Shown: one piece after another, positions 44,362-60,375 of the stretch
Numbering within the stretch: position 1 is the stretch's first letter
Layout: every line of letters starts with the position of its first letter
Assembly: GCF_030758315.1 (NCBI RefSeq)
Contig: NZ_CP132336.1
Location: 1,054,001 to 1,118,000, forward strand
Length of the DNA: 64,000 bases
Source of the DNA: Pararhizobium sp. IMCC3301
Lineage (GTDB): Bacteria; Pseudomonadota; Alphaproteobacteria; Rhizobiales; GCA-2746425
Direction of reading: 5' to 3'
Notes under the pieces: generated by a model
Seen by the model: the letters and a program-made list of their open reading frames with translations, nothing else
Told to the model about the DNA's origin: nothing
Database searches by the model: none
Position numbers and translations under genes: made by a program

Positions 44362-44365
44362 AAAA

Positions 44366-45733: not shown

Positions 45734-46025
45734 ACTGGGACACTTAGTGGAAAAAGTCCGCTCCAAGAACGCCGGACCGTTCAAGCTTACCATCGATATT
45801 TTCTGCGGCTCGAGCGATGCATACACTCATGTCGGATCGGCTCTGTCCACCGAACGCATTGCCACCCTGCTGCGGACCGATCCCTCAAAGCTGCAACGCT
45901 TCGACATTCCCTCCCTGAATGTCATAAAATTCAGCCTCGACCGGCCCCAGGTCCAGGGCTCGATTCATGACCGCGACATGCACGGTGCCAGTTGGGCGGC
46001 CCTTGTTGCTGAATTGGAGATTTAA
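45726..46025 (+). CDS. DUF4387-family protein
   Basis: 99 residues starting at GTG 45726-45728 inside the end of the AtuA-family gene. KVRSKNAGPFKLTIDIFCGS and DRDMHGASWAALVAELEI are typical of DUF4387, which regularly accompanies AtuA-like proteins, separately or fused at their C-terminus. The overlap suggests a two-subunit enzyme. No membrane segments. Confidence 0.85.
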   Translation: MAELGHLVEKVRSKNAGPFKLTIDIFCGSSDAYTHVGSALSTERIATLLRTDPSKLQRFDIPSLNVIKFSLDRPQVQGSIHDRDMHGASWAALVAELEI

Positions 46026-46685: not shown

Positions 46686-47594
46686 TTATTCACACAGCCG
46701 GAAGCCACCTTTACGCGCGCGCATGTCGAGGTGAAAGTGATTGGCATGGGCAGCATTCGTCATCGGCCCCAGAACCGTCGTGAAATAAGCGCAGGCCGCC
46801 CCGCGTATCGCGGCTTGAAAAGAAGCTGATTTGTCGTAATTGATATTGCGTTCCACCACCGCAATGCGGCCGGCCTTTCCGGCTTCGAAGAAATGCACGT
46901 CCAGCCCATTGGCAAACGCATGTTCGCTGAGCTTGGAATCTGTCACTCCATTGCGCATGCGGCACTGATACGACGTGCTGATGCCGATCCCGGACAAGGG
47001 TTCCTGCAGATAGAGCTTTGAAAGCGGGGCAACACTCTGTTTCACCCATTTGGCAAGGGCGACTGCCATCGGGCAGGACAAGGTCGCTGTTTCGCTGAGT
47101 GTGACGCCTCCAGGCAACGCTGTCAGGGTGACCGGATATGCAATTCCGCAACCGCCTTCTGCAATGATCGGATCGAGCGCTGTGAATTGCACGCCCAATG
47201 CTTTCAGATCCGCTTGACAGGCGGATGCGGTGGCAGCTTCGGTCTTCACAGCCTCAAGAATTGAGGCCGGTGTCAGGGCATTTGAGGGCAGTTTCTCCTC
47301 CTGAACCGATGGCACAGTCTCTGCCTCTGATCCAGTTTCTGCCTCTGCCTCTGCCTCTGCCTCGGTCTCTGCTTCTGCCTCGGTCTCTGCTTCTGGCTCT
47401 GTATCTGTCTCCACCTGCGGTTTGGAAACCGGTTTCATGGAGCCAACTGAAACTGGAGGCTGAAGGGTGTCTGGCGCGTTGCCGGCTAGCGGTTTGCTGG
47501 TTGGGAGCGGCACCGCTTCGGTTGCAGCAAGGGGCATTGGTGCAACCACCAGCAACGCGACCAGAACAAGTGTACTGAGGCGATCATTTCGCAT
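46686..47594 (-). CDS. Extensin-like C-terminal domain protein (PF06904), peptidoglycan-related
   Basis: 302 residues from ATG 47592-47594. Signal peptide ending near PLAATEA, then a low-complexity linker of Glu/Ala/Thr repeats (about 45-100), then the catalytic-looking domain: SEHAFANGLDVHFFEAGKAG and NAAHANHFHLDMR, whose S-x-H...D and H-x-H residues resemble the zinc site of M15/VanY-type peptidases. Its start overlaps the L,D-transpeptidase stop (TGATG), so both are expected to act together on the cell wall. The repeat linker is made of hexamers that could change in number. Confidence 0.85.
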   Translation of the reverse strand: MRNDRLSTLVLVALLVVAPMPLAATEAVPLPTSKPLAGNAPDTLQPPVSVGSMKPVSKPQVETDTEPEAETEAEAETEAEAEAEAETGSEAETVPSVQEEKLPSNALTPASILEAVKTEAATASACQADLKALGVQFTALDPIIAEGGCGIAYPVTLTALPGGVTLSETATLSCPMAVALAKWVKQSVAPLSKLYLQEPLSGIGISTSYQCRMRNGVTDSKLSEHAFANGLDVHFFEAGKAGRIAVVERNINYDKSASFQAAIRGAACAYFTTVLGPMTNAAHANHFHLDMRARKGGFRLCE

Positions 47595-48670
47595 CAGGAA
47601 CCTTCGAGAAACTCTACAATCGTACCGGTAGAGACGAGTTTGGCCAGTTCTGCGGCATCCCAGTTCGTCAGCCGCACACAACCATTGCTCTGTGTTTTGG
47701 CAATCTTTGACGGATCGGGCGTGCCGTGAATTCCATAGGTCGGTTTCGACAGATCAATCCATATCGAGCCGACCGGGCCATTCGGGCCTGCTGCAATGGT
47801 CAGGACCTCTTTATTATCACCCTGGGTGAAATTGATTTTCGGATTATAGGTATAGGTCGGGTTTTCCGCGACTGCGACAACCTCGTGGGTTCCCGACGGG
47901 CTAGGGGTACTCTCGCTTCCCACAGTGGCCGGATACATGGCTACCAGCAGCCCTTCTGCATCATAGGCTTGAACCCGGCCATTCTTCCCATCGACAATAA
48001 TGCGTTTGACGCTTGCGTTCTCGATCGGCCGCATCGGACTTGCGACGAGCAGGACCTCGCCGACATTTGCAAAAGTAGCCGAGGGATTGAGCGCGCGCAG
48101 GAAATTTTCATCCATATGGAACCGCTCTGACAGCATCTCGACTGGACTTGTATAGCTGAGCGCCTTCAGTTTCGCCTTCTCACTGTAATCACTTGGCACC
48201 TCGGCAATATAATCCATAGCCAGATCTTCCGCTGTGAGTGTGTAGGTCTGCATCACCGCGTCGCCAAAACTCGCAACGAGCAACTCCCAGGTTTCTGGTG
48301 TGACGGTTCCGGTTACCTCAAGCTGATTGACAGATTGAAAGCCGACCAGCGCGCTCGCATAATTATCGCCTGCGAAACCGTCAATCACACCGACCGAAAA
48401 TCCGGCCCGGTCCAATGCGATCTGCACACGGGCAACCAGCGCTGAAGGTCCTTCATGCTCTGCTTTTGGCCCTGCTTCTGACCCTGTTTCTGACCCTGTT
48501 TCTGAATTGGGTGCTGACCCCTCTTCTTGTTTGAGCAGAAGAGTTTGTCCTGGCGTTGCTGCTTCAATGGCATCCTGGGTCAGGGGGGTTTGACCCATAG
48601 CCAGCGACATCGCCAGAAGGACATATGCACAGGAGGTCAGCATGCCTGTGATGAACAATGATTTTTTCAT
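47594..48670 (-). CDS. L,D-transpeptidase (YkuD) with peptidoglycan-binding domain
   Basis: 358 residues. Signal peptide at the N-terminus, a short SETG/SEAG repeat, a helical peptidoglycan-binding domain 1 (ALDRAGFSVGVIDGFAGDNY), a LysM-like segment (about 165-205), and the YkuD domain at the C-terminus with GIHGTPDPSKIAKTQSNGCV and RLTNWDAAEL, which holds the catalytic H...SxGCxR site. It makes 3-3 cross-links or anchors proteins to peptidoglycan. An exact EcfG-type promoter lies 69-93 bases upstream on the minus strand, so general-stress control is likely. Confidence 0.93.
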   Translation of the reverse strand: MKKSLFITGMLTSCAYVLLAMSLAMGQTPLTQDAIEAATPGQTLLLKQEEGSAPNSETGSETGSEAGPKAEHEGPSALVARVQIALDRAGFSVGVIDGFAGDNYASALVGFQSVNQLEVTGTVTPETWELLVASFGDAVMQTYTLTAEDLAMDYIAEVPSDYSEKAKLKALSYTSPVEMLSERFHMDENFLRALNPSATFANVGEVLLVASPMRPIENASVKRIIVDGKNGRVQAYDAEGLLVAMYPATVGSESTPSPSGTHEVVAVAENPTYTYNPKINFTQGDNKEVLTIAAGPNGPVGSIWIDLSKPTYGIHGTPDPSKIAKTQSNGCVRLTNWDAAELAKLVSTGTIVEFLEGS

Positions 48671-48738
48671 TACGTCCCTTTCTTAATGACTGCGGAATGC
48701 AGTCACAGCGCCGAAATATGCGCGCTCTTGGAGATAGA

Positions 48739-48763
48739 AACGTGGTTGATCGAGAAAAGTTCC
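48739..48763 (-). promoter_or_regulatory. EcfG-type promoter for the L,D-transpeptidase operon
   Basis: Minus strand: GGAAC, 16 bases, CGTT, matching the alphaproteobacterial general-stress sigma EcfG consensus. Reads toward the L,D-transpeptidase start at 48670. A small hairpin (TGACTGC ... GCAGTCA, 48687-48705) lies in the leader. Confidence 0.78.
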
Positions 48764-48831
48764 ACTGCTGCTACCTATAAAGATAGTTGAAAGGAGGAAT
48801 TATTCCCGACCTCATTTTTTTATCAATTCAT

Positions 48832-48856
48832 GGAACGAATGCGCGCTGCGTCCGTT
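48832..48856 (+). promoter_or_regulatory. EcfG-type promoter for the gene at 48900
   Basis: GGAAC at 48832-48836, 16 bases, CGTT at 48853-48856, then TAAC. Reads toward the ATG at 48900, about 44 bases further. It is divergent from the promoter at 48739-48763. Confidence 0.78.
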
Positions 48857-48899
48857 AACATTGCAACAACACCATGAAACGCCATTTTGGAGAACTGCC

Positions 48900-49235
48900 A
48901 TGACCGAATTGTTTGCCATCTTTCTTGTAAGTTGCTCTCATATGCTTGGCGTGTGCAAGGAGTCTCCTGAGCCGGTTCAGGTTTTCGCTAACTATAATAC
49001 ATGCGAAGAACGCCTTTATACTCGCCTTGACGATGCCGTTTCGAAATTTGAGAAATCCCTTCCTGTAGCAGTCGGCAAATGCGTCAAAGTGCAACCCGAT
49101 ATGGCCTTGGCCAACCCTGATTTCAAATGGTTCTTTGCCAACGACGGCAACCTTTTTGTCGAAGCAGTTGCGCCCGCTGCCCAGCAGAACGCTGCCAATT
49201 CTCAGCAGGCTATGCTGAGCCCGGACAAAGGCTGA
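48900..49235 (+). CDS. Small secreted or membrane-attached protein of unknown function
   Basis: 111 residues from ATG 48900 after GGAGAACTGCC. The N-terminus TELFAIFLVSCSHMLGVC is hydrophobic and could be a signal or short anchor; it is followed by cysteines at about residues 19, 35 and 59 (NYNTCEERLY, AVGKCVKVQPD). The C-terminus is rich in Ala/Gln. Not recognised. The exact EcfG-type promoter upstream and the strong terminator downstream mark it as a single stress gene. Confidence 0.7.
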   Translation: MTELFAIFLVSCSHMLGVCKESPEPVQVFANYNTCEERLYTRLDDAVSKFEKSLPVAVGKCVKVQPDMALANPDFKWFFANDGNLFVEAVAPAAQQNAANSQQAMLSPDKG

Positions 49236-49286
49236 TACCGAACCGCAGGCACGTTTCCTGCGCACAACGCAGCAGATCCTACGAGC

Positions 49287-49324
49287 CACAAAAAAACCCC
49301 CGCCATGGCGGGGGTTTTTTTGTG
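49287..49324. terminator. Bidirectional Rho-independent terminator
   Basis: AAAAAACCCCCGCC pairs with GGCGGGGGTTTTTT in one continuous palindrome, with a T-run on either strand. It lies 55 bases after the stop of the small stress gene. Confidence 0.92.
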
Positions 49325-50300
49325 CATGCACAAATTTCCCTGGGAATTATTTGTCCAAGAGTATCCCTGACGATCCCAATTAAGATCAGGTAATCCGGGC
49401 AACCAAGCGGCAGCTTCCCACCTCGTGACGCGCATCGGGCAGATTTCAGCAAAGCCCATATCCTTCAGCACTTCATGAGTAGATAGAATTTTTAGTCCGG
49501 GGTTACGTGTGGGTCACAGAGGCAAACTTAGCGCCGCTGTCCTGATAACCACAAGAGAGGAGTTCAACGGACATATGTGGCGTGCGCGCAAACACGGCCT
49601 TCGGTTGTGCCCCTCCCCCTACAGGCCCACCGGACAGCATCGGCCAAACATATACGCATCACCGCATCGTATCGTTAGCATTGAAGAGGACCTCGGCGCG
49701 CGAGCCCGTGCGCACAAGTCACAGCTTCACAACGTCTCGTACTGCCATACCTTTCTCATAAAAATGAGCCGCGGATCCACACCCTCAGTTTGCTTCACTG
49801 TGACCCGGCGCCACCAATACAGCGCATTTGCGCGTTGACAGCGCAATAGAGAAGGCTGCCTCAGCAGCCAGGACTGGCGTGTTTCACAAGGCCAGTGCAA
49901 GCTGAGGCACATCAAGTGAGCACCGTGTGGGAAATAGCCTCATCCATTCAATCTTGCTGCCGCGCGCCCCCAAGCGAAATAAACACCGGATGGCAAACCT
50001 GAAAGGGTATTAATGCGCCCGGATCGCCTGCAGACTCATGTCGCGAGTTCCAAGAGACCCTGTGCCCGCTCAGCATGTTATCTCAATTCGAGGTCCCCGA
50101 CGCCTTGGCCCCGGCGGCATGAATTTGGAACGGGCCATAATAATCTTGACGCCACCGCCGACGCGATCAGGATTTTGCGCGACCCGGATTGCCGTTGTGC
50201 CGATGCACAAATGTTAAATCGATTTCATGTGGCGAGTTATTGAATCCAGATTTGACGAATGATTTCCAGTAAAGGGGTGGGGCCACTCCCCGAACGCAGA
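49325..50300. other. Gene-free stretch of about 1 kb
   Basis: No open frame here has a ribosome site together with family features; those up to 109 codons look like random translation. The stretch holds a nested stem structure at 49858-49908 and short GC-rich hairpins. It may be eroded coding DNA or hold an unrecognised RNA. Confidence 0.5.
49858..49908. other. Nested inverted repeat, candidate structured RNA or protein site
   Basis: Outer arms GCCTCAGC and GCTGAGGC (8 bp, perfect) enclose inner arms ACTGGC and GCCAGT (6 bp) with a 12-base loop. A smaller hairpin, GCGCATTTGCGC, lies just upstream near 49822. No T-run follows, so it is not a simple terminator. Confidence 0.45.
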
Positions 50301-50324
50301 ACGGCCGCTCCGAGGAGCGGCCGT
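50301..50324. terminator. Strong hairpin downstream of the PRC-barrel gene
   Basis: ACGGCCGCTC and GAGCGGCCGT form a perfect 10-bp stem with a CGAG loop, 25 bases past the stop of the minus-strand gene. There is no U-tract after it on that strand, so it may be a processing end rather than an intrinsic terminator. Confidence 0.55.
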
Positions 50325-50348
50325 CATACACGACAAATTTAGGTCGAA

Positions 50349-51221
50349 TTAGCCTTCATATTCAGGCTGAGCTTCGAGCTGTTCTTTGCTGGCATCGATA
50401 TAGACACGGAACGCCGAGCCATCGGTTTCGCGCAGGATGCTCAATTCATCAAGCGTGACAGCAATCTTGCGTTCGCCAATACCAAGGAAGCCACCGATAC
50501 CCAGGATCGCTTTCGTGATCTGGCCGCTGTCGTCAACGATCAGTTTGTCGATTTCGCCGACATCTTCATCTTTCGCGCCGTAAACGCGTGCGCCGGTCAG
50601 ATCTTCCGTGGTCAGTTCTTCGAACGAAGAAACACCGTAGCCTTCACGGGTAACTTCGGGTGCCATAAGCATCCGACGCTCGCCGTCCATCATGCGATCG
50701 GCGTCTGTTTTTTCTTCAGACATCACCCGCTCTTTCTTGACGTCGACGTCGGTTTCAACTTCCTGCTCGCGGTCCGTCACGGCAACGCGGGCATAGGTTT
50801 CCATATCGGTCAGACCCTGCTTGTTGGTGTTTACGACCAAAAAGAAATCGTCTGGGTCATCTTTTTCGCTGACCATCTTGATGCTGGACATTTCCACGGC
50901 AACATCTTTTTCGCCGATGCCGATAAATCCACCAACACCGATAATCACAGCTTTCACCTGGCCGTCACGGCTGAGGATCACATCATTGATTTCGCCGATG
51001 TCATCCCATTCCTGTTCAGCATCTGCTTCCAGCATTGTTTCGGCATTGAAGCTGTCAAAATCTTTTTCAGCCGCATAGACACGCATTCCGATGAATTCAG
51101 AAGCGTAAATATCGCCCTGCTGCTCAACCGAATAAGGCTGCAGTGCTGTTGTGTGAGCTGCAGCAAAGGCTGATGTGGACAGCATGAGCGTCATTGCAGT
51201 TGTTGCGATAATGCGTTTCAT
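50349..51221 (-). CDS. Exported protein with two PRC-barrel domains
   Basis: 290 residues. Signal peptide (KRIIATTAMTLMLSTSAFA). Two PRC-barrel repeats, around residues 40-125 (IGMRVYAAEKDFDSF, GEINDVILSRDGQVKAVIIG) and 205-285 (LTGARVYGAKDEDVGEIDKL, QITKAILGIGGFLGIGERKI), joined by an acidic linker. PRC barrels bind diverse partners; exported two-barrel proteins are common in Hyphomicrobiales and often stress-induced, but have no defined job. A one-mismatch EcfG-type promoter lies about 80 bases upstream. Confidence 0.88.
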   Translation of the reverse strand: MKRIIATTAMTLMLSTSAFAAAHTTALQPYSVEQQGDIYASEFIGMRVYAAEKDFDSFNAETMLEADAEQEWDDIGEINDVILSRDGQVKAVIIGVGGFIGIGEKDVAVEMSSIKMVSEKDDPDDFFLVVNTNKQGLTDMETYARVAVTDREQEVETDVDVKKERVMSEEKTDADRMMDGERRMLMAPEVTREGYGVSSFEELTTEDLTGARVYGAKDEDVGEIDKLIVDDSGQITKAILGIGGFLGIGERKIAVTLDELSILRETDGSAFRVYIDASKEQLEAQPEYEG

Positions 51222-51297
51222 GAGGCATTCTCCATTTGTTGTATCGTTTTGTATAACTACACGCCGGGTTCGACATCGTGCGTGGCGTTACCAACAG

Positions 51298-51322
51298 AAC
51301 AAACGACTCGCGAATAAGTTCC
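51298..51322 (-). promoter_or_regulatory. Possible degenerate EcfG-type promoter for the PRC-barrel gene
   Basis: Minus strand: GGAAC, 16 bases, TGTT instead of CGTT. Position relative to the start at 51221 is right, but with one mismatch in the -10 it is a weak call. Confidence 0.4.
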
Positions 51323-51728
51323 AAAGCATTTGCAAGTTTTGGGCTTATTTGCTGTTTTCGGAACAGCGAGAAAAGAACTGGTAGAGTTCATGGGTCTGAA
51401 CGGTGGTATGGCTGCATATCAAATGAGGTTCGGAGGCAGTGGCTGTGCATTCTATTGGGCAGCGCGCGAACAACCTTCCACCGCAGAGCGCAATTTGCCT
51501 CTGGCCAGGCAGTGTCTTTGAACCAGGCATTATCTTTGAATATGCCGGCAAATCCACAGCTTTGAATCCAAACCGGAAATGAAACAGGCAGTTCGAACGC
51601 AGTGCCGGTTCGCGCATGTCGGTTTTTCCCGAAACTCCTCCGAGCGCTAATTGGCGATTGCTGATCTGAAACCGTTTTCGCCTTGGCTTTTGAGTTCACA
51701 CTTTATTACCCATCTTTGAAGACGCCCC
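51323..51728. other. Gene-free stretch before the response regulator
   Basis: About 400 bases. Open frames on both strands here lack ribosome sites and recognisable features. Nothing further is seen before the EcfG-type promoter at 51729. Confidence 0.5.
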
Positions 51729-51754
51729 GGAACCGTTGTGAAAGTTTGTTCGTT
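51729..51754 (+). promoter_or_regulatory. EcfG-type promoter for the response regulator
   Basis: GGAAC, 17 bases, CGTT, reading toward the ATG at 51809, 54 bases away. Confidence 0.78.
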
Positions 51755-51808
51755 GTCGTGCCACCAAGACCATTCATGATAAATTTGATTCAAACTGAAA
51801 GAAAAAAA

Positions 51809-52162
51809 ATGGCACAACAACGGACATTGCTGATTGTCGAAGATGATCCCTTTATCGCCATGGACATGGAGTGGGAATTTTCTGACCGCGGTTACAAGGT
51901 TATCATCGCTTCAGATCCGGCCAGTGGCGCGCGCGCCCTCACCCAGGTGGTGCCGGATTTTGCCATTCTGGATTATAATCTGGGAAAAGAAACCAGCGTC
52001 CCGATCGCCAACGCTCTGGTAGATGCAAAAATTCCGTTCATCTACCTAACCGGACGCCCCCAGGCTGTTGTCGACGATGCGTCCGCACCCGATGCTCCAA
52101 TTATACCAAAACCATTCAACTTCGATTTTCTGGAGCGCACCTATCTGGCTGCTTCGGCCTGA
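51809..52162 (+). CDS. Single-domain response regulator
   Basis: 117 residues from ATG 51809 (MAQQRTLLIVEDD); the frame is open further upstream but crosses the promoter. A lone receiver domain: acidic pair in VEDDPF, phospho-acceptor Asp in FAILDYNLGKET, the Thr in IYLTGRP and Lys in IPKPFNF. No output domain. Single-domain receivers under EcfG control (such as SdrG) help tune PhyR/NepR/EcfG signalling. The exact EcfG-type promoter upstream makes a similar role plausible. Confidence 0.92.
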   Translation: MAQQRTLLIVEDDPFIAMDMEWEFSDRGYKVIIASDPASGARALTQVVPDFAILDYNLGKETSVPIANALVDAKIPFIYLTGRPQAVVDDASAPDAPIIPKPFNFDFLERTYLAASA

Positions 52163-52165
52163 TAC

Positions 52166-52198
52166 AACAACACCCCCGCGAGTAGCGGAGGTGTTGTT
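52166..52198 (+). terminator. Terminator of the response-regulator gene
   Basis: AACAACACC and GGTGTTGTT form the outer stem and CCGC/GCGG the inner one, four bases after the stop codon, followed by TTTC. Typical intrinsic terminator, though the T-run is short. Confidence 0.75.
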
Positions 52199-52265
52199 TC
52201 TGGCGGGTATTTTGGAGGTCACCGCTGGTATAGTTCAAACTTCAAACTGCAGATCAATCTTAGAC

Positions 52266-52340
52266 TCAGATAAGCCCTGCGTAGGACATGATGGCTCCCG
52301 TAACAAAAAGAACGCCGAATACATAAAGCGCAGTTTCCAT
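52266..52340 (-). CDS. 24-residue membrane miniprotein
   Basis: ATG at 52338-52340 with GGAAAGAGG about 8 bases upstream; the peptide METALYVFGVLFVTGAIMSY plus four residues is a single membrane helix. An exact EcfG-type promoter lies 34-58 bases upstream on the same strand. A similar-sized miniprotein with its own EcfG promoter occurs at 55292-55366. Function unknown. Confidence 0.6.
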   Translation of the reverse strand: METALYVFGVLFVTGAIMSYAGLI

Positions 52341-52373
52341 TTTGAGGGCCTCTTTCCTGGTCTCTGGGGTATT

Positions 52374-52398
52374 AACGGCGAGCGGCGATATTGGTTCC
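52374..52398 (-). promoter_or_regulatory. EcfG-type promoter for the miniprotein at 52266-52340
   Basis: Minus strand: GGAAC, 16 bases, CGTT, reading toward lower coordinates. It lies between the DUF1206 gene and the miniprotein. Confidence 0.75.
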
Positions 52399-52491
52399 GG
52401 CATGTCCCCAAAAAAAAAGTATCCTGGATACTAAGTGTCCCCGATAAGCACTTAGCGACCCACCCGGTGGGGGCGACACAATAAGCCGGCA

Positions 52492-53310
52492 CTACACCTG
52501 CTCTTTGACGCTTGCATCCTCAACATTAATGTTACGCCATATCGCTTCCGTGAATGAATAGGCGGCAAACAGAATAAGCCCTACCCCCATCGCAAGCAGC
52601 AACCATTGTCCGAAAGGAAGCCCCTGCAGGAATTCCAGAGCATCTTCTGTAGTTGGAGCTTTGCTGGCGTCCTCGCCTGCATTCAGAAATCGATAGGTCA
52701 GCAGAACGCCAAGCAGAGCAAAATCCAGCCCTCTAGCGATGAGACCCGCAATTGAAATTGGATGAATGTATGTCATCTGAGCCTCAGTGGCCTTCAGATG
52801 GTCTTCGTATTTTCGCAAAGCCGCCTTTCGCCAGTGCGCAGCCGCCACACCAAAAAAGATGATGGCAAGCCCAAGCGAAATATACTGCGTGCTCACGAAA
52901 CGGGAAAGAGATTCTGCAAATCCACCTGAACTGCCACTGCTGCCGGACCCCCACACCAATCCCAATAAGGAGAGCGCGTAGAGTGCAAGCGCAGCATAAG
53001 TGAAAGCGCTGGCCAGCAGTCCTGCCCGAACAACAAGACCCTTCGCTGACCAGCCATGATCGTCCGTGTCAAGCAGGGACTGGATCAACCGCCACACGAC
53101 GTAGCCGCCCAGTCCGATAATCATCAAGCCCACCATGAAGTCCCCCAGGGGCTGCTCAAGAAGTGTTCTCAACGCGTCTTTGCTGTCTTTTTCGTCCCCG
53201 GCACCAAACGATGCCAGCACTGTGAATATACCGATTATGAGGTAAACCAGTCCGCGTGCTGCATAGCCGGCGCGCGCAAGCGGAATGATCCAGGTGTGAG
53301 AAGATTTCAT
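52492..53310 (-). CDS. DUF1206-family membrane protein
   Basis: 272 residues from ATG 53308-53310. Six hydrophobic segments arranged as three repeats of the DUF1206 unit: ARAGYAARGLVYLIIGIFTV, VRAGLLASAFTYAALALYAL and IARGLDFALLGVLLTYRFLN. The arginine and glycine-rich start of each repeat is the family hallmark. Function unknown; often near stress genes. It follows the PAP2 gene after 31 bp. Confidence 0.92.
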   Translation of the reverse strand: MKSSHTWIIPLARAGYAARGLVYLIIGIFTVLASFGAGDEKDSKDALRTLLEQPLGDFMVGLMIIGLGGYVVWRLIQSLLDTDDHGWSAKGLVVRAGLLASAFTYAALALYALSLLGLVWGSGSSGSSGGFAESLSRFVSTQYISLGLAIIFFGVAAAHWRKAALRKYEDHLKATEAQMTYIHPISIAGLIARGLDFALLGVLLTYRFLNAGEDASKAPTTEDALEFLQGLPFGQWLLLAMGVGLILFAAYSFTEAIWRNINVEDASVKEQV

Positions 53311-53341
53311 GGTGTTGCCAGACTGTTTGAATTGTGTTCCC

Positions 53342-54055
53342 TCAGCCGGAACGCCCCAACTCCTCGTTTCGTTCCGCACCGCCTGTCAGACGGCGGGCAA
53401 TTTTGTCAGCAACCAGCCAACTGCCCGATGCCCATGCCAGACCGATGGCCCAGCCCGCAATCACGTCACTCGGCCAGTGGACACCCAGATATACGCGTGT
53501 GCTGCCGATGATCAGTGCGAGCGTCATCGCAGCGACCAGAACATAGATCCTGAGCCGGCGCATCTCGATAAACCGTATCGCTATCGCGGCAAGCGTGAGC
53601 CAGGCGATCATCGAAAGCATCGCGTGCGCACTGGGAAAGCTGGAAGTAAAGGTCTGGTCGAGACGGTCTACAAGGTCTGGCCGGGCGCGGTTGAAAAACA
53701 GTTTCAGCAGTGAAGATACAACACTCCCGGAAATCAGGGTCAGGGCGAGAAACACTGCTGCAGCGTTTTTCCGTGCAATCAGCAAAGCGCTCAGCACAAT
53801 CACCACCGCCAGGACCACTATTGGGTAGCCGCCAAGGGCGGTCAGCTCGGCGGCGGTCTTCTGGAACCAGACTGGGCCCCAGGCGTCGGAAAGATCTTCC
53901 GGATTGCGCAAGGAGAGGACAACAATGCGATCAAAACTCTCCGTCAGACCGAGTTGGACCGCCGCCACCAAAACGGCAAATGCCACGATCCCGATTGACA
54001 AAGTCGAATATGCGGCACGGCGCATAGCTTTAGAGGACGTCCTCTGGCTCATCAT
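53342..54055 (-). CDS. PAP2-family membrane phosphatase
   Basis: 237 residues, about six membrane helices. The PAP2 active-site motifs are visible: LFFNRARPDLVDRL (variant of KxxxxxxRP), SSFPSAHAMLSMIAWL (PSGH-like, here PSAH) and STRVYLGVHWPSDVIAGWAI (SRxxxxxHxxxD). It dephosphorylates lipid phosphates such as phosphatidic acid or undecaprenyl pyrophosphate. Overlaps the lipid-kinase-like gene by 4 bases, a kinase/phosphatase pairing. Confidence 0.92.
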   Translation of the reverse strand: MMSQRTSSKAMRRAAYSTLSIGIVAFAVLVAAVQLGLTESFDRIVVLSLRNPEDLSDAWGPVWFQKTAAELTALGGYPIVVLAVVIVLSALLIARKNAAAVFLALTLISGSVVSSLLKLFFNRARPDLVDRLDQTFTSSFPSAHAMLSMIAWLTLAAIAIRFIEMRRLRIYVLVAAMTLALIIGSTRVYLGVHWPSDVIAGWAIGLAWASGSWLVADKIARRLTGGAERNEELGRSG

Positions 54056-54963
54056 TGTGCAACTCCAGTATGCGGAAGCAATACCCGTAAAGCATCTTTT
54101 TCGATCTTGAAATCAACCCGGGAAGGCAAATCCACAAGTTCCCCATCTTTCAACGCGCTTGAATTCTTCCGTTTGCGAGGGAACGAAACAGACATCTTCT
54201 GTGTCTCTTCAATGGTAACATTCCTGTTTTCCGTCCACGTACCGACGATCAAATCCAGGATCAGTTTTACCGCTTCCAATGGATTCACTTTTGGAGTGCG
54301 GTAAACGCCCAGGCAGTGCCCGTTATATGTGTCAGCAAATAAATTGTGTCCGGCCCCCAGAAGATTGTTCGACACAGACAGAGCCGTAATCCGTTCAGTG
54401 TGTGGCTTTGTCGCGTTCACGGTGAAATGCGCCGGAAAGGAAGGCGGATCAGTTATGACACTGAACATTGCCCGCAAGGTCGCCGTGATTTTCCCCAATC
54501 GAGACGCATAATCCATCTTGTTGCGCAATTTCACGGCCCGCGGGTGAAAACCAACCGAATATTGGTTGATGAAGGGTTCGCCATTGGCTGTTGCAATGTC
54601 GGCCAACACTTCCCTACCCTTTGCCAGTGCAGAAACCGCCTCAAAAATATCTGCCGGTGATCTGAGAGTGCTGGCATAAAGATTCATGGTGCCGCCAGGG
54701 AGCACACCGAGAAGTCTGTTGGTTCGCCAGGCGAGCTCCGCGAGCGCCGAGACGGTACCATCGCCACCGGCAGCAATGAGCAGTTCTGCCTGTGAAGCTC
54801 TCGCCTGTTCGAGCGCATCCGCCATCCCGGTCTGGTCAATTCGGATGATGGTAACTCTATGACCGGCCTTTTCAAATTCCGATCTGACATGAGATTCAAG
54901 AGATGCCATGTCGCAGGTCTTTAAAGTCCCGCTTTCGCCATTGATAAGCGCCAAACCTTCCAC
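54052..54963 (-). CDS. Diacylglycerol/sphingosine kinase-family protein
   Basis: 303 residues. Catalytic-domain motifs: LLIAAGGDGTVSALAEL, LLGVLPGGTMNLYASTL (nucleotide-binding GGDGT and PxGT) and PFINQYSVGFHPRAVKLRNK. No membrane segment; family members phosphorylate diacylglycerol or related lipids. Coupled by 4-base overlap to the PAP2 phosphatase, so the two may act on one lipid. A weak EcfG-like promoter (GGAAC-N16-AGTT, 55123-55147, minus strand) lies upstream. Confidence 0.9.
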   Translation of the reverse strand: MEGLALINGESGTLKTCDMASLESHVRSEFEKAGHRVTIIRIDQTGMADALEQARASQAELLIAAGGDGTVSALAELAWRTNRLLGVLPGGTMNLYASTLRSPADIFEAVSALAKGREVLADIATANGEPFINQYSVGFHPRAVKLRNKMDYASRLGKITATLRAMFSVITDPPSFPAHFTVNATKPHTERITALSVSNNLLGAGHNLFADTYNGHCLGVYRTPKVNPLEAVKLILDLIVGTWTENRNVTIEETQKMSVSFPRKRKNSSALKDGELVDLPSRVDFKIEKDALRVLLPHTGVAQ

Positions 54964-55229
54964 TGCACGTATTCCTTCCGCCGTTGGTCCGGCTCGCAGC
55001 TTTTGTGAGCCGCGCGCCCTTTCGATTTAGGATCTCGTTCACTGTATTATACAGAGAGACACATCTACACAGAGAAACATCGCGTTTCCAGCGCTACAAT
55101 ATTTTCCCCGCCTCACGACGGTAACTGCCAACAGGCTGAGGAGTTCCGGGCGACTCAGAATTCAATCCAGTCCTTCCCAGGGCCGGCTAAAGGTAAAAAG
55201 GGGGGCTAACCTGCAGTTCACAAAAATCC
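54964..55229. other. Divergent intergenic region
   Basis: Nearly 270 bases between the kinase-like gene and the promoter at 55230, with no supported open frame. It contains the weak EcfG-like element at 55123-55147 (minus strand, one mismatch in the -10). Confidence 0.5.
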
Positions 55230-55255
55230 GGAACCTTTCGGCAGGTCTGTGCGTT
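55230..55255 (+). promoter_or_regulatory. EcfG-type promoter for the 55.3-56.0 kb genes
   Basis: GGAAC, 17 bases, CGTT, then AT. It lies 36 bases before the miniprotein ATG at 55292. Confidence 0.78.
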
Positions 55256-55291
55256 ATCGGGCATATCCAGCAAAAAAGGGGAGCTTTTCCA

Positions 55292-55366
55292 ATGAACGCC
55301 ATCGTCTATCTCGTCGGACTCGTTGTTGTCATCATGTTTATCCTGTCACTTCTCGGATTGCGGTAG
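55292..55366 (+). CDS. 24-residue membrane miniprotein
   Basis: ATG 55292, ribosome site GGGGAG about 8-12 bases upstream. The peptide, MNAIVYLVGLVVVIMFILSL plus four residues ending in Arg, is a single membrane helix. Directly follows an EcfG-type promoter and precedes the PhnA-like gene by 9 bp. This short type of protein is common in Hyphomicrobiales and usually left out of annotations. Confidence 0.65.
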   Translation: MNAIVYLVGLVVVIMFILSLLGLR

Positions 55367-55375
55367 GATCGCATC

Positions 55376-56005
55376 ATGCCAAACACAGCAAAACAAATTT
55401 TAACCGACACAGGTCCAGCCACGGTTGCGCCTTCGTCTTCTTATCTGGAATGGGGTGCCATCATGGGTGGTGCGGTGCTTGCAGGGGGGATTTCTGTTGT
55501 CCTTCTGCAATTTGGTGCCGGCACAGGACTTGCGATGGGCTCTGCAACGCTTGCCGATGGCTCTGCGTCCTGGAACGTACTTGTCGCGGGTCTCTACGTC
55601 GTCATCGTCGCAATCGCAAGTTCGTCCGCCGGCGGCTATATCGCAGGGCGGATGAGATCGAAATGGGCAGACTCCACTGTGGAGGAAGTTGAATTTCGCG
55701 ATGGTGCACATGGTTTGGTCGTCTGGGCGGTAGCAACGCTTGGTGTGGCTGTTGTGATGGGCGCACTGACTGCAATATCGGCGTTGGGTGCTGCTGCGGC
55801 AGCAGCTGCAACTGATATTCCTGAGAATACGTTGCGCTTGACTGCAAATGTCTCGGCGATATTTTCATTCGCCAGTGCAGCCGGAGCTCTGCTTGGCGCG
55901 GCGGCTGCATGGTTCTCCGCAACGTTAGGCGGAGAACACAGAGACCAGGGCCTGTCCGTGCATGAGGTGGTCCCGCTCGCACTGAGACGCCGCACGGCAA
56001 AATAG
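55376..56005 (+). CDS. PhnA-like membrane protein
   Basis: 209 residues. Five hydrophobic segments rich in Ala and Gly: YLEWGAIMGGAVLAGGISVV, NVLVAGLYVVIVAIASSSAG, GGYIAGRMR, HGLVVWAVATLGVAVVMGAL and a C-terminal Ala-rich one. It belongs to what is called PhnA-like in alphaproteobacteria, which is not phosphonatase. Function unknown. Cotranscribed with the miniprotein from the EcfG-type promoter and closed by a strong terminator. Confidence 0.75.
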   Translation: MPNTAKQILTDTGPATVAPSSSYLEWGAIMGGAVLAGGISVVLLQFGAGTGLAMGSATLADGSASWNVLVAGLYVVIVAIASSSAGGYIAGRMRSKWADSTVEEVEFRDGAHGLVVWAVATLGVAVVMGALTAISALGAAAAAAATDIPENTLRLTANVSAIFSFASAAGALLGAAAAWFSATLGGEHRDQGLSVHEVVPLALRRRTAK

Positions 56006-56024
56006 GCGAAATCCGTCTGAATTT

Positions 56025-56055
56025 AAAAGGCACCCGGCGAAACCGGGTGCCTTTT
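56025..56055 (+). terminator. Rho-independent terminator
   Basis: AAAAGGCACCCGG and CCGGGTGCCTTTT with a 5-base loop, followed by T and G. It lies 20 bases after the PhnA-like stop. Confidence 0.93.
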
Positions 56056-56110
56056 TGCGTTTTGGTGGAGTGTTGGCTTCAATTAATTTTGCTCAACTGT
56101 AAATCTCATT

Positions 56111-56135
56111 GGAACCAATCCCGATCCACCGCGTT
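56111..56135 (+). promoter_or_regulatory. EcfG-type promoter for the DUF3309 operon
   Basis: GGAAC, 16 bases, CGTT, then TTA. It reads toward the ATG at 56166, about 30 bases further. Confidence 0.8.
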
Positions 56136-56165
56136 TTATGCACGTAACAATCATGGAGAGCGGCA

Positions 56166-56381
56166 ATGTCTAATCCCGACCGACCTACGCATACAGAACG
56201 CGAAACGACGACTGTAGTTACTGATGGAGGCGGCGGCGGTGCTGTCTGGTTCCTCATTGGTGCAGTTGTGGTCGCACTGATCATCGGCGGCTACTTTTAT
56301 ACAGGTGGCGACTTCTTTGGCGGTGGCAACAAAACAATTGATGTGAACGTAGACGTTCCCAAAGTAGAACCAGCCAACTGA
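56166..56381 (+). CDS. Small single-helix membrane protein
   Basis: 71 residues: a charged N-terminus (RPTHTERETTTVVTD), a glycine run, one membrane helix (AVWFLIGAVVVALIIGGYFY) and a periplasmic-looking tail. Not recognised beyond the small stress membrane-protein type of this group. It is driven by the EcfG-type promoter and followed by the DUF3309 gene after 15 bp. Confidence 0.7.
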   Translation: MSNPDRPTHTERETTTVVTDGGGGGAVWFLIGAVVVALIIGGYFYTGGDFFGGGNKTIDVNVDVPKVEPAN

Positions 56382-56396
56382 ATAGGGGCATAAATC

Positions 56397-56555
56397 ATGG
56401 GTCTTGGTACAATACTTGTAATAATTCTGGTAATTCTCCTCATCGGAGCGCTGCCATCCTGGGGCTACAGCCGGAGCTGGGGATATTTTCCTTCCGGCGG
56501 ACTGGGCTTGGTATTGCTGATCGTTTTGGTCCTTGTTTTGATGGGCCGAGTCTAA
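56397..56555 (+). CDS. DUF3309-family small membrane protein
   Basis: 52 residues, ATG 56397. Two hydrophobic segments around the family core ALPSWGYSRSWGYFPSGGLG, which is diagnostic of DUF3309. Function unknown. Probably cotranscribed with the preceding small protein from the EcfG-type promoter at 56111. Confidence 0.85.
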   Translation: MGLGTILVIILVILLIGALPSWGYSRSWGYFPSGGLGLVLLIVLVLVLMGRV

Positions 56556-56761: not shown

Positions 56762-57697
56762 ATGGCAAAGCCGCCACGTAAAGTCATCATAACCTGTGCC
56801 GTGACCGGTGCCATACACACACCCACCATGTCGCCGCATCTGCCGGTGACACCCAGTGAAATTGCCGCCAGTGCCGTTGAAGCTGCCGAAGCCGGTGCGT
56901 CGATCCTGCATCTTCATGCGCGCGATCCCGGCACTGGCAAACCCACCCAGGACCCGGCAGTGTTTGCGCAGTTTCTGCCGCGCATCAAGCAAAGCTGCAA
57001 TGCGGTGATCAATCTCACCACCGGCGGCAGTCCGTTCATGAGCGTTGCCGAGCGCATGGCTCCGGCCACAACATTCAAGCCTGAAGTCGCCTCGCTGAAT
57101 ATGGGATCGATGAATTTCGGCCTCTACCCGATGCTCGGCCGTTTTTCCGAATTCCAGCATGAATGGGAACGCACCCATCTGGAAGCCTCGCGCGATCTGG
57201 TGTTCAAGAACACGTTTCAGGACATTGAGGACATTCTGCGCGCCGGCAATGATAACGGCACCCGTTTCGAGTTTGAGTGCTACGACATTTCCCATCTGTA
57301 CAATCTGGCGCATTTCGTTGATCGCGGCCTTGCGAAAACGCCGCTTTTCATCCAGTCGGTATTCGGCCTGCTGGGCGGCATTGGTGGCCATCCGGAAGAT
57401 CTGATGCATATGAAACGCACCGCCGACCGGCTGTTCGGCGAGAGCTATCAATGGTCCATACTCGGTGCCGGTCGCAACCAGATGCCACTGGCTAGCATGG
57501 GTGCTGCTCAAGGGGCCCATGTGCGTGTCGGGCTGGAGGATTCGCTGTGGATAGCGCCCGGCGAGCTGGCACGGTCCAACGCCCAGCAGGTTACAAAAAT
57601 CCGCCAAATACTGGAGGGCCTGTCGCTGGAAATCGCCACTCCTGATGAAGCCCGCGAGCTGTTACAGTTGAAGGGCGGCGATCAGGTCGCGTTTTGA
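56762..57697 (+). CDS. BKACE-family beta-keto acid cleavage enzyme (DUF849)
   Basis: 311 residues. KVIITCAVTGAIHTPTMSPH and SILHLHARDPGTGKPTQD (zinc-binding His pair), INLTTGGSP, and the C-terminal GAGRNQMPLASMGAAQGAHV and RVGLEDSLW are BKACE landmarks. The family condenses a beta-keto acid with acetyl-CoA, giving acetoacetate and a CoA ester; Kce in lysine fermentation is one member. The following SDR and aconitase X genes suggest a short oxidation-dehydration-cleavage route, with substrate unknown. Confidence 0.93.
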   Translation: MAKPPRKVIITCAVTGAIHTPTMSPHLPVTPSEIAASAVEAAEAGASILHLHARDPGTGKPTQDPAVFAQFLPRIKQSCNAVINLTTGGSPFMSVAERMAPATTFKPEVASLNMGSMNFGLYPMLGRFSEFQHEWERTHLEASRDLVFKNTFQDIEDILRAGNDNGTRFEFECYDISHLYNLAHFVDRGLAKTPLFIQSVFGLLGGIGGHPEDLMHMKRTADRLFGESYQWSILGAGRNQMPLASMGAAQGAHVRVGLEDSLWIAPGELARSNAQQVTKIRQILEGLSLEIATPDEARELLQLKGGDQVAF

Positions 57698-57716
57698 ACC
57701 AATACGGAAGTTTAGC

Positions 57717-58499
57717 ATGAGCGAAACAATGGGCCTTCCGCCCGGAACCAGAGTCCTCGTCACGGCCGGGGCAAGCGGCATTGGCTATGCGATTGCCACA
57801 AGTTTTGCTGCAGCGGGCGCAAAGCTCCATGTTTGCGATATTGACAAAACCACGCTGGATGCCTGTGCCGCTGCCCATCCGGACTGGGGCACAAGCCTTT
57901 GCGATGTATCCGACGAGGCTGAAGTGGAACGTCTGTTTCAGGAAGCCGAAGCCCATCTAGGCGGGCTCGACGTGCTGGTCAACAATGCTGGCATTGCCGG
58001 ACCAACCGGCAGCATTCACACCATGGACGGGCCGGAATGGCGGCGCACCATTGATGTCAATCTCAACAGCCAGTTCTACTGCACAAAGCTGGCTGTGCCG
58101 CTGCTTCAGCAATCTGAAAATCCCTCCATTATCTGTCTTTCCTCAGTCGCCGGTCGGCTTGGTTATGCGTTCCGCACGCCCTACGCCGCCAGCAAATGGG
58201 CGATTATCGGCATGGTCAAAAGTCTGGCCATTGAACTGGGACCGCAAGGCATTCGCGTCAACGCCATACTGCCTGGCGTTGTGGAAGGCCCTCGTATCGA
58301 CAAAGTCATCGCTGCACGGGCGGAAGTCGCCGGCGTGCCGCATCAGCAGATGGAACAGGAATATATCTCGAAAATATCCCTGCGCCGCATGGTCACTGCG
58401 CAGGACATCGCCAATCAGGCGCTCTATCTCGCCTCGCCGCTCGGCGCCAACATATCCGGCCAGCCCATCAGCGTTTGCGGCAATGTGGAAGTGCTTTAG
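57717..58499 (+). CDS. Short-chain dehydrogenase/reductase
   Basis: 260 residues, Rossmann fold. Cofactor motif VTAGASGIGYAIA (TGxxxGIG type), NNAG (VLVNNAGIAG), catalytic Ser in CLSSVAGRLG and Y-x-x-x-K in YAASKWAIIG. The acidic residue CDIDKTTL after strand two favours NAD(H). It follows the BKACE gene after 19 bp and probably oxidises a hydroxy acid to the keto acid that BKACE cleaves. Confidence 0.93.
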   Translation: MSETMGLPPGTRVLVTAGASGIGYAIATSFAAAGAKLHVCDIDKTTLDACAAAHPDWGTSLCDVSDEAEVERLFQEAEAHLGGLDVLVNNAGIAGPTGSIHTMDGPEWRRTIDVNLNSQFYCTKLAVPLLQQSENPSIICLSSVAGRLGYAFRTPYAASKWAIIGMVKSLAIELGPQGIRVNAILPGVVEGPRIDKVIAARAEVAGVPHQQMEQEYISKISLRRMVTAQDIANQALYLASPLGANISGQPISVCGNVEVL

Positions 58500-58687
58500 C
58501 CGCATATCTGTGACCTGTAGCTTGGTGTTATAGACAGTTCAGTCATCATCGCGATGATCGTAACTCTGCCTGTTGCAGTGCAAATGCGGATTTGCTGCGG
58601 CTCTCATCTACCAGCCTGTAGACCCGCTGTCATTCCTGAAGTAACACTGTCATTCCAAACCACCTCCCGGAATTGCAGGACATATTC

Positions 58688-59944
58688 ATGCTGTCGCTCA
58701 GTGCTGAAGAACAGGCCGTTCTGGCCGGGACAACCGGCACCACAGGCGACCGCATGGCCATGGAAATTGTCGTTGAGGCGGCCACCATGCTGGGCGCGCA
58801 AAGCCTCGTGCCGGTTATATCCAGCCATATTGACGGCTGCCTTTATCATGGCGATTCCGGCGCGCTGTTCTGCGAGGAACTGGCCCGCAGGGACGCACGC
58901 GTCAAAGTGCCGACCAGCACCAATGTCGGCGCGCTAAACCTGCTCAACCCGAATCAGACCCGCCTGCCCCCGGCGCAACGCAAAATGGCTCTGCGGCTGA
59001 TGACCGCCCACCAGAGGATGGGCTGCGCCTCAAGCTGGACCTGTGCGCCCTATCAGGCGGGCATGCGCCCGCAGCCCGGGGATCAGGTCGCCTGGGGCGA
59101 ATCCAACGCAGTGGCTTTCGTCAATACGGTACTTGGCGCGCGCAGCAATCGTTACGGTGATTTTCTTGATATTGCCTGTGCGGTCTCCGCTCGCGCGCCC
59201 AATTACGGTCTCCATCTTGGCGAAAACCGCCGTGCCAGCCTGTTGATTGACCTGTCCGGTCTGGCGCGGCCCTTATTGCAGGAAGATGCATTTTTCCCGG
59301 TTCTGGGCGCGATGATCGGCCGTCTTGCTGGCGAGGCAATAGCGGTGGTGGACGGCCTGCTGCCGGGCGCGACCGATGACCAGCTCAAGGCGCTGTGCGC
59401 CGGGGCGGCTTCCACCGGTTCTGTAGCGCTTGTGCATCTGGCTGGCATCACCCCGGAAGCGCCGGACGCTGAAACCGCTCTCGGCGGCCTGCCGCCGCAA
59501 GAGATAATTCCGGTCGATCAGGCCATGGTGCTCGCCGCCCGCAACAGCCTCAGCCTGGCAAAACCCGGCCCTATTGACTGTGTGGCACTCGGCAGCCCGC
59601 ATTTTTCCAATGCCGAATGCCGGCGGTTTCTGCAACTGGCAGAAGGACAACCATTTCGTGTACCGGTCTATATCTGTCTCGGACGCCACACTTTGGCGCA
59701 GTTACAAACTGATGGTGCCGACGACGCTTTGCGTGCCCTGGGCGTAACTTTGGTGGTGGATACCTGCGTTGTGGTCACGCCGATTCTGCCCGCCACGCCA
59801 GGCGTGATGATGACCAACTCCGCCAAATTCGCCCATTATGCCTCCGGCAACACCGGCTATGCGCCGGTTTTCGGCACACTTCCGGATTGTGTCGCCAGCG
59901 CCCGGACCGGCCATGTCGTATGGGATGCCGGGCTATGGGGATGA
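58688..59944 (+). CDS. Aconitase X catalytic (large) subunit
   Basis: 418 residues from ATG 58688, with AGGA eight bases upstream; a TTG five codons earlier is less likely. Motifs: VVEAATMLGAQSLVPVISSH and IDGCLYHGDSGALF, VPTSTNVGALNLLN, and cysteines in GCASSWTCAPYQAGMRPQPG that probably bind iron or an Fe-S cluster. Bacterial AcnX enzymes characterised so far are cis-3-hydroxy-L-proline dehydratases. It is separated from the SDR gene by 188 bp and overlaps the small subunit gene by 4 bases. Confidence 0.88.
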   Translation: MLSLSAEEQAVLAGTTGTTGDRMAMEIVVEAATMLGAQSLVPVISSHIDGCLYHGDSGALFCEELARRDARVKVPTSTNVGALNLLNPNQTRLPPAQRKMALRLMTAHQRMGCASSWTCAPYQAGMRPQPGDQVAWGESNAVAFVNTVLGARSNRYGDFLDIACAVSARAPNYGLHLGENRRASLLIDLSGLARPLLQEDAFFPVLGAMIGRLAGEAIAVVDGLLPGATDDQLKALCAGAASTGSVALVHLAGITPEAPDAETALGGLPPQEIIPVDQAMVLAARNSLSLAKPGPIDCVALGSPHFSNAECRRFLQLAEGQPFRVPVYICLGRHTLAQLQTDGADDALRALGVTLVVDTCVVVTPILPATPGVMMTNSAKFAHYASGNTGYAPVFGTLPDCVASARTGHVVWDAGLWG

Positions 59945-60375
59945 GCTGGCAGGCAGACATGCTGTGCGCCGGAACAGCGGAAGGCGAAGTGTTGCGGTTT
60001 GACGCGCCGGTCAGCTTTTGGGGCGGCATCAGCCCGCAAACCTCCGAAGTCACTCTGGCCGGTCACCCGCAGCTTGGCGAGATAATTGCAGGCAAAATAC
60101 TGGTGATCCCGCGCCTGATTGGCTCTTCGTCTTCTTCCGCCGTGCTGCTGGAGCTGCTGTATAATGGCATTGCCCCAAAGGCGCTGATACTGGGAGGCCG
60201 CGATGCCATCCTGCCGGTTGGAGTGGTGGTCGCGCGGCAGATGGGCTGGCCCACCATCCCCATCGCCACCCTCTCCGCCCCACCCTTCATCAGCGGCACC
60301 CGGCTGCGACTTTGCGAAGATGGCCGGATTGAGCAACTGACGCCGACGCCGCAAACCATTTCTCCCTCACCGTAA
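59941..60375 (+). CDS. Aconitase X swivel (small) subunit, DUF126
   Basis: 144 residues starting at ATG 59941, overlapping the large subunit stop (ATGA). LRFDAPVSFWGGISPQTSEV and GKILVIPRLIGSSSSSAVLL are typical of the DUF126/AcnX swivel domain, which closes the active site of the large subunit. The C-terminus overlaps the convergent gene at 60367 by 9 bases. Confidence 0.9.
   Translation: MSWQADMLCAGTAEGEVLRFDAPVSFWGGISPQTSEVTLAGHPQLGEIIAGKILVIPRLIGSSSSSAVLLELLYNGIAPKALILGGRDAILPVGVVVARQMGWPTIPIATLSAPPFISGTRLRLCEDGRIEQLTPTPQTISPSP

Follow-up and report, generated by a model that had tools for sequence, protein, structure and literature searches.

A 7.4-kb gene cluster of Pararhizobium sp. 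IMCC3301 is very likely a satellite of the general stress response (GSR) of alphaproteobacteria, directed by the sigma factor EcfG and feeding the strengthening of the cell envelope. The cluster lies in a stretch of 64 kb, hereafter the window (G000:C1:1054001-1118000), of a 4.58-Mb genome that forms a single contig. This reading is carried by promoter-like sites located by computation, by their clustering, position and conservation, by a core general-stress locus in the same genome, and by a family of 24-amino-acid miniproteins. The reported EcfG1 motif of Rhizobium etli is GGAAC-N16-CGTT (PMC3892343), and that of Sphingomonas melonis is GGAAC-N17-20-GTT (PMC6599016). The sites and genes of the cluster are as follows.

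48739-48763, minus strand: candidate EcfG-type promoter (GGAAC-N16-CGTT) of the transpeptidase/extensin-like operon; exact match, conserved
47594-48670, minus strand: L,D-transpeptidase (YkuD) with a peptidoglycan-binding domain; PF03734 (8.7e-22), PF01471 (1.3e-10); closest solved sequence 8da2 (6.4e-79)
46686-47594, minus strand: extensin-like C-terminal domain protein; PF06904 (4.7e-49); start overlaps the transpeptidase stop
48832-48856, plus strand: candidate EcfG-type promoter, divergent from 48739; exact match, conserved
48900-49235, plus strand: 111-amino-acid protein; no Pfam or NCBIfam match
51298-51322, minus strand: candidate one-mismatch promoter (GGAAC-N16-TGTT) of the PRC-barrel gene; conserved form and distance
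50349-51221, minus strand: PRC-barrel protein, two stretches, signal-like N-terminus (by eye); PF05239 (3.7e-17)
51729-51754, plus strand: candidate EcfG-type promoter (N17) of the response regulator gene; exact match, conserved in G003
51776-52162 (alternative start 51809), plus strand: single-domain response regulator, SdrG-like; PF00072
52374-52398, minus strand: candidate EcfG-type promoter of miniprotein 1; exact match
52266-52340, minus strand: miniprotein 1, 24 amino acids, hydrophobic, METALYVFGVLFVTGAIMSYAGLI; family alignment; hydropathy 1.84 over 19 residues
53350-53375, minus strand: candidate EcfG-type promoter (N17) of the DUF1206 gene, inside the PAP2 3' end; exact match, overlapping the opposite-strand match 53348-53373
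52492-53310, minus strand: DUF1206 membrane protein; PF06724 (6.5e-36); six hydrophobic segments
53342-54055, minus strand: PAP2-superfamily phosphatase; PF01569 (4.1e-25)
54052-54963, minus strand: diacylglycerol/lipid kinase; PF00781 (3.3e-18); end overlaps the PAP2 start
55123-55147, minus strand: weak candidate promoter (one mismatch, AGTT) of the kinase-PAP2 genes; 159 bp upstream
55230-55255, plus strand: candidate EcfG-type promoter (N17) of miniprotein 2 and 55376; exact match
55292-55366, plus strand: miniprotein 2, 24 amino acids, hydrophobic, MNAIVYLVGLVVVIMFILSLLGLR; family alignment; hydropathy 3.03 over 19 residues
55376-56005, plus strand: membrane protein with four hydrophobic segments, co-directional with miniprotein 2
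56111-56135, plus strand: candidate EcfG-type promoter of the 56166-DUF3309 genes; exact match
56166-56381, plus strand: 71-amino-acid protein with one hydrophobic segment; no family match
56397-56555, plus strand: DUF3309 small membrane protein; PF11752 (1e-22)

The sequence of an EcfG promoter (GGAAC, a spacing of 16 or 17, CGTT) was found in eight exact copies by a search of the whole window, at 48739-, 48832+, 51729+, 52374-, 55230+, 56111+, 53348+ and 53350-, and in two copies with one mismatch in the -10 element, 51298- (TGTT) and 55123- (AGTT). The first-pass annotation had listed the first six exact sites, all with correct positions, and had missed the overlapping pair 53348+/53350- before the DUF1206 gene. 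All eight matches fall inside 7.4 kb, where about 0.1 would be expected by chance; no further match with a spacing of 16 or 17 occurs in the 64 kb, and a single N18 match is present at 487+. First-order Markov sequences modelled on 48601-56200 (7.6 kb) averaged 0.13 matches and never exceeded 2 (300 runs); for the full window the mean was 0.95 and the maximum 3 (60 runs). The observed count is 8 in both cases. The whole genome holds 74 exact matches, and the window cluster is the densest by exact sites. When 74 matches were placed uniformly 20,000 times, no 7.4-kb interval held more than 5.

Gene starts were called with a simple gene finder of our own, and individual starts may be off. The distances from 48739, 48832, 51729, 52374, 55230 and 56111 to the starts are 68, 43, 21, 33, 36 and 30 bp, respectively, and 53350- lies 39 bp from the DUF1206 start. 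Seven of the eight exact sites are thus 21-68 bp upstream of a gene on the same strand, within the roughly 100 bp of a promoter position, and the remaining one, 53348+, pairs with 53350- on the opposite strand. The spacing of 30-70 bases given earlier for the six sites holds for all except 51729, whose 21 bp become 54 bp if the response regulator begins at its second methionine. The two one-mismatch copies noted earlier do precede the PRC-barrel gene (by 76 bp) and the lipid kinase gene, the latter at a distance beyond that range. A same-strand start within 120 bp follows 7/8 of the cluster matches and 12/66 of those elsewhere in the genome (Fisher p = 1.9e-4).

Four genomes of the same genus (G001-G004) are available, and sites were compared in G003 and G001, where they are conserved before the orthologues, exactly or with one mismatch. 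The transpeptidase site is exact in G003 (L029:10946-, 66 bp) and G001 (L031:14172+, 67 bp), against 68 bp in the window; its leader is just 65% identical, yet both boxes are retained. The site of the 48900 orthologue is also exact in both (L029:11038+, 29 bp; L031:14068-, 28 bp). In G003, the receiver site (L029:19213+, 53 bp), the miniprotein 1 site (28 bp), the DUF1206 site (L030:988-, 59 bp, inside the PAP2 3' end as in the window) and the miniprotein 2 site (L030:1836+, 33 bp) are all exact. The G001 cluster shows no receiver orthologue, and its sites before miniprotein 1 (28 bp), DUF1206 (L031:10534+, 59 bp) and miniprotein 2 (33 bp) carry one mismatch each. Before the PRC-barrel gene, all three genomes have the TGTT variant 76 bp from the start, and the weak kinase-PAP2 site has one-mismatch counterparts in G001 (142 bp before the kinase) and G003 (116 bp before PAP2). 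No counterpart of 56111 was established in the G003 and G001 clusters. The transpeptidase and extensin-like genes, which are retained as a pair in G003 and G001, probably form one operon.

The core of the general stress response was found in the same genome, where PhyR, EcfG and an HWE kinase (profile matches) stand together with a NepR-like gene. PhyR, of which the genome has one clear copy, is encoded at L003:4286-5083 (PF22233, 2.6e-20), and NepR at L003:5257-5445, assigned by position and size without a profile. The motif lies 55 bp upstream of nepR-ecfG and 236 bp upstream of the kinase. The core of G001 has a divergent exact pair (L032:9611- and 9645+), and that of G003 an exact site between nepR and phyR. 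GGAAC-N16-CGTT therefore marks the general-stress locus in three members of the genus. In G001 the cluster is apart from the core locus. In G003, positions 718000-777000 form one island of phyR-nepR-ecfG, kinases, a CsbD-like gene (by eye), a BrkB orthologue and most cluster orthologues, with 15 exact sites in 59 kb (13/15 within 120 bp of a same-strand start) among 78 in 5.25 Mb. Two cluster proteins resemble proteins encoded near the window genome's own core: the 111-amino-acid protein 48900 weakly matches L003:9905-10213 (20% over 100 residues, single-pair E 1e-6), and the 71-amino-acid protein 56166 is similar to a 57-amino-acid protein at L003:673-846 (37% over 49 residues, single-pair E 9e-12). 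The core locus, its motif, the congener sites and the G003 island support the earlier assignment of the sites to EcfG. A second PF22233 match, at G000:C1:2623839, was considered as a second PhyR and rejected, as its frame reads as a separate extracytoplasmic function (ECF) sigma gene, followed downstream by what looks like a gene for a membrane anti-sigma factor (by eye).

L093:5840-6810: second ECF sigma locus, sigma gene and apparent anti-sigma gene (6031-6810); PF22233, frame read, by eye

The single-domain response regulator resembles receivers of this signalling system. Its best PDB match is 2msw (4.3e-14), followed by SdrG (5ieb, 1.2e-12), 2lpm (7.5e-11), which we take to be SMa0114, and PhyR chains at 5e-8 and weaker. 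FAT GUY receivers carry a PFxFATG(G)Y-type motif; the region reads IPFIYLTGRP in the window and IPFVFVTGRP in G003, which is PFxFxTG-like and an inexact fit. The G003 orthologue has a divergent HWE-kinase-like gene beside it (L029:18174-19184), which is absent from the window and was gained or lost as a unit. In having such a kinase, the G003 orthologue resembles the SdrG and SMa0114-type regulators, whereas the window receiver has no adjoining kinase, and tblastn gave no signal of a kinase remnant beside it. SdrG of Sphingomonas hands phosphate on toward PhyR (PMC5898713), so the receiver may feed back on the response. SMa0113/114 have been reported as RpoE2-dependent (PMC3616915).

The two 24-residue open reading frames (ORFs) of the cluster, 55292-55366 and 52266-52340, belong to a conserved hydrophobic family found in many alphaproteobacteria, with the consensus MNxIIYLVGLVVVVxxILSFLGLR; hydropathy gives one segment in each of the two. 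G003 and G001 together contribute five more members, orthologous or paralogous, that also have 24 residues. An alignment of these proteins matches 20/289 genomes of the class, G000 counted, and a protein search gave 31 plasmid records with matches, mostly from Hyphomicrobiales, 18 of which were fetched. The PLSDB gene table lists no feature under the matches in the 31 records; this table describes itself as incomplete, and three records (H24, H25, H31) are essentially without annotation. Three of the peptides had no Pfam or NCBIfam match above cut-off, a sub-threshold match of one to Tom6 (E 0.11) was dismissed as noise, and a literature search did not find the peptide sequences. The excerpted text of PMC5521070 holds no mention of the family.

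Forty-six copies were counted, that is, 54 collected loci minus six with a non-fitting ORF (L110, L112, L118-L121) and two window duplicates; near relatives are still included (L123/L124, both without a site, and L105/L108, both with one). GGAAC-N16/17-NGTT occurs 15-90 bp upstream of 24/46 copies and strict CGTT upstream of 14/46, against 0.075 and 0.04 in shuffles. With the seven copies from the window and the congener islands set aside, the motif precedes 18/39. Among other genes of at least 40 codons in these loci it precedes 17/143, of which 3/17 are window genes; this rate among neighbours is high in its own right, and several of them resemble stress genes. Of the copies that start with MHS or MSS, 2/8 have a site, and such copies may form a second branch of the family. 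A third copy in the Pararhizobium genome itself (L122, G000:C1:2741188-2741259), about 5 kb from phyR, is of the MHS branch, and no EcfG-like site was seen within the 150 bp read. PhyR scores over its cut-off in 17/19 miniprotein-positive genomes (barely in G189) against 4/20 listed negatives; genome size and kinship confound this co-occurrence, which is counted as consistent only.

A homologue of the membrane protein 55376 is encoded directly downstream of the miniprotein in 20/47 loci, the window's own counted. The first-pass annotation had called 55376 PhnA-like. It matched no PhnA family profile and no other Pfam or NCBIfam family above cut-off, with just PF24364 below it, and "PhnA-like protein" was not found in the GSR literature among the matches listed; the name should be dropped. 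Miniprotein 2 probably acts as a small subunit or regulator of 55376, through a predicted contact. Packing against a partner helix is suggested, speculatively, by the fixed length and by the two invariant glycines, G9 and G22, and gene order suggests, with the same reserve, that 55376 is the partner. The short single-helix proteins KdpF, CydX, AcrZ and MgtS of Escherichia coli tune a larger membrane partner; the miniproteins are like them in their small single-helix form, a likeness by description in which the partner 55376 is uncharacterised.

Several observations weigh against assigning the whole cluster to EcfG. The genome-wide scan that the first-pass annotation had proposed gave no enrichment (74 matches against 125 for a reversed-pattern control), and 47/74 matches are intragenic. 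Single matches elsewhere are therefore weak evidence and mostly noise, and the case rests on how the sites cluster, where they lie and how they are conserved. Copies with one mismatch are close to the background level (6 in 7.6 kb, with 2.7 expected from the remaining window) and were rejected as independent evidence. The PRC-barrel site is less telling because its whole leader, not just the site, is 91% identical. Among the four congeners, DUF1206 is present in G001 and G003 and absent from G002 and G004, and a close receiver (61%) is found in G003 only, not in G001, G002 or G004; the module is therefore not universal in the genus. The motif is absent upstream of 22/46 miniprotein copies, both Bradyrhizobium copies included. 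GGAAC-type -35 boxes are favoured by most ECF sigma factors, and at least one ECF sigma gene besides ecfG is present in the genome, so another ECF factor could contribute.

It is improbable that such a factor, dedicated to envelope stress, owns the promoters and that the resemblance to EcfG is incidental. The second sigma gene with its apparent membrane anti-sigma gene and the wide use of GGAAC boxes among ECF groups would fit this explanation, but GGAAC-N16-CGTT precedes nepR-ecfG itself in the genome studied, G001 and G003, G003 fuses the cluster to the core locus, and the SdrG-like receiver is of a GSR signalling type (PMC5898713). Still less probable is a non-coding role for the 24-residue ORFs, as segments of small RNAs under EcfG control or as leaders of the gene that follows. 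An 88-nucleotide direct EcfG1 target, ReC64, lies downstream of phyR-tcrY in R. etli and was termed non-coding (PMC3892343), and sigma-E2 promoters precede 23 small RNAs in Sinorhizobium meliloti (PMC3616915); the empty, if incomplete, gene table points the same way. Against this stand pairwise mismatches of 0.35/0.11/0.60 at codon positions 1/2/3 (45 copies), so selection acts at the peptide level, as well as the invariance of G9 and G22 with all four glycine codons in use, a length of exactly 24 residues in 45/46 copies (collected with a 22-26 length filter) and a purine-rich, ribosome-site-like stretch upstream of most starts (by eye). That the sites are chance matches without activity is hardly credible: the intragenic majority of the genome matches and the higher count of the reversed control would allow it, but chance accounts poorly for their density in 7.4 kb, for their conservation at like distances in two congeners, and for the motif at miniprotein copies far outside the genus.

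The EcfG-directed reading leads to a mechanism that is predicted from gene content and promoter sequence. Stress would activate HWE kinases, PhyR would be phosphorylated and bind NepR, and EcfG would thereby be freed. EcfG would then direct RNA polymerase to about nine candidate promoters of the form GGAAC-N16/17-NGTT in the cluster and induce its genes. The products would strengthen and remodel the envelope: the transpeptidase and its extensin-like partner, the PRC-barrel protein, the kinase and PAP2 phosphatase, DUF1206, DUF3309 and the two miniproteins. The cell wall would be cross-linked and lipids turned over, while miniprotein 2, made in an apparent operon with 55376, would be inserted in the membrane as a pair with it. 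The SdrG-like receiver would also be raised and would probably feed back on PhyR phosphorylation. The earlier description as an envelope stress regulon holds in that the general-stress genes gathered here lean toward the envelope, but nothing indicates a separate envelope-stress sensor, and it should rather be labelled the envelope arm of the general stress response.

Other observations concern the surroundings. Catabolic genes that look unrelated to the stress genes lie on both flanks (42856-46025 and 56762-60375; TctA, AtuA, BKACE, a short-chain dehydrogenase and aconitase X), and a repressor-like protein at 62154-62798, whose C-terminus seems by eye to be of S24 type, may mark the edge of a mobile element. 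MamU/YegS-type models score the lipid kinase below their cut-offs. A second small stress locus, L065 (G000:C1:2251802 and 2252460), has two exact sites, 32 and 39 bp upstream of the genes for a 53-amino-acid small hydrophobic protein and for a protein similar to that of the window PRC-barrel gene (41% over 80 residues). The G003 island carries an 875-amino-acid protein, presumably a cyanophycin synthetase, and a peptidase S51 gene (PF03575) at L029:11758-15573, between the orthologues of 48900 and 50349; its counterpart in the window is about 1.1 kb without a called ORF. The DUF1206 locus of Pararhizobium mangrovi (L004) has no exact site and no other gene in common with the cluster.

The EcfG (sigma-EcfG/RpoE2) regulons of R. 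etli, S. meliloti and S. melonis share the motif and the PhyR/EcfG region (PMC3892343). A PRC-barrel gene is among the top targets in S. melonis (PMC6599016), and S. meliloti has receiver-kinase pairs with sigma-E2 motifs (PMC3616915). Many EcfG targets lack an assigned function; in S. meliloti 150/202 of the RpoE2-raised genes are without a predicted one (PMC3616915). Unlike these regulons, the window holds its candidate promoters in 7.4 kb away from the core, with an envelope-weighted content and two 24-amino-acid proteins. SEP6 of S. meliloti, with fewer than 30 residues, a predicted transmembrane helix, presence in the pellet (P100) fraction and conservation in Hyphomicrobiales (PMC10117765), is like the miniproteins in size, helix and conservation, by description only. 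SEP6 or the R. etli ReC64 may be a member of the miniprotein family. The sole paper found on DUF1206 or DUF3309 in the GSR literature concerns a cyanobacterium.

Of the cluster's features, the miniprotein family most merits further attention. This family looks like a common, overlooked general-stress output. It is reasonably probable that 24-residue single-helix membrane proteins of one class-wide family, absent from the gene tables examined, are a standard output of the alphaproteobacterial GSR and often serve as the small subunit of an uncharacterised, larger membrane protein encoded directly behind them. The cluster would link the general stress response to peptidoglycan cross-linking and lipid turnover, and it exposes a conserved miniprotein-partner pair that can be studied experimentally in common laboratory strains of alphaproteobacteria. 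Should the family be general, a recurrent general-stress product may be missing from transcriptome data tabulated on standard annotation.

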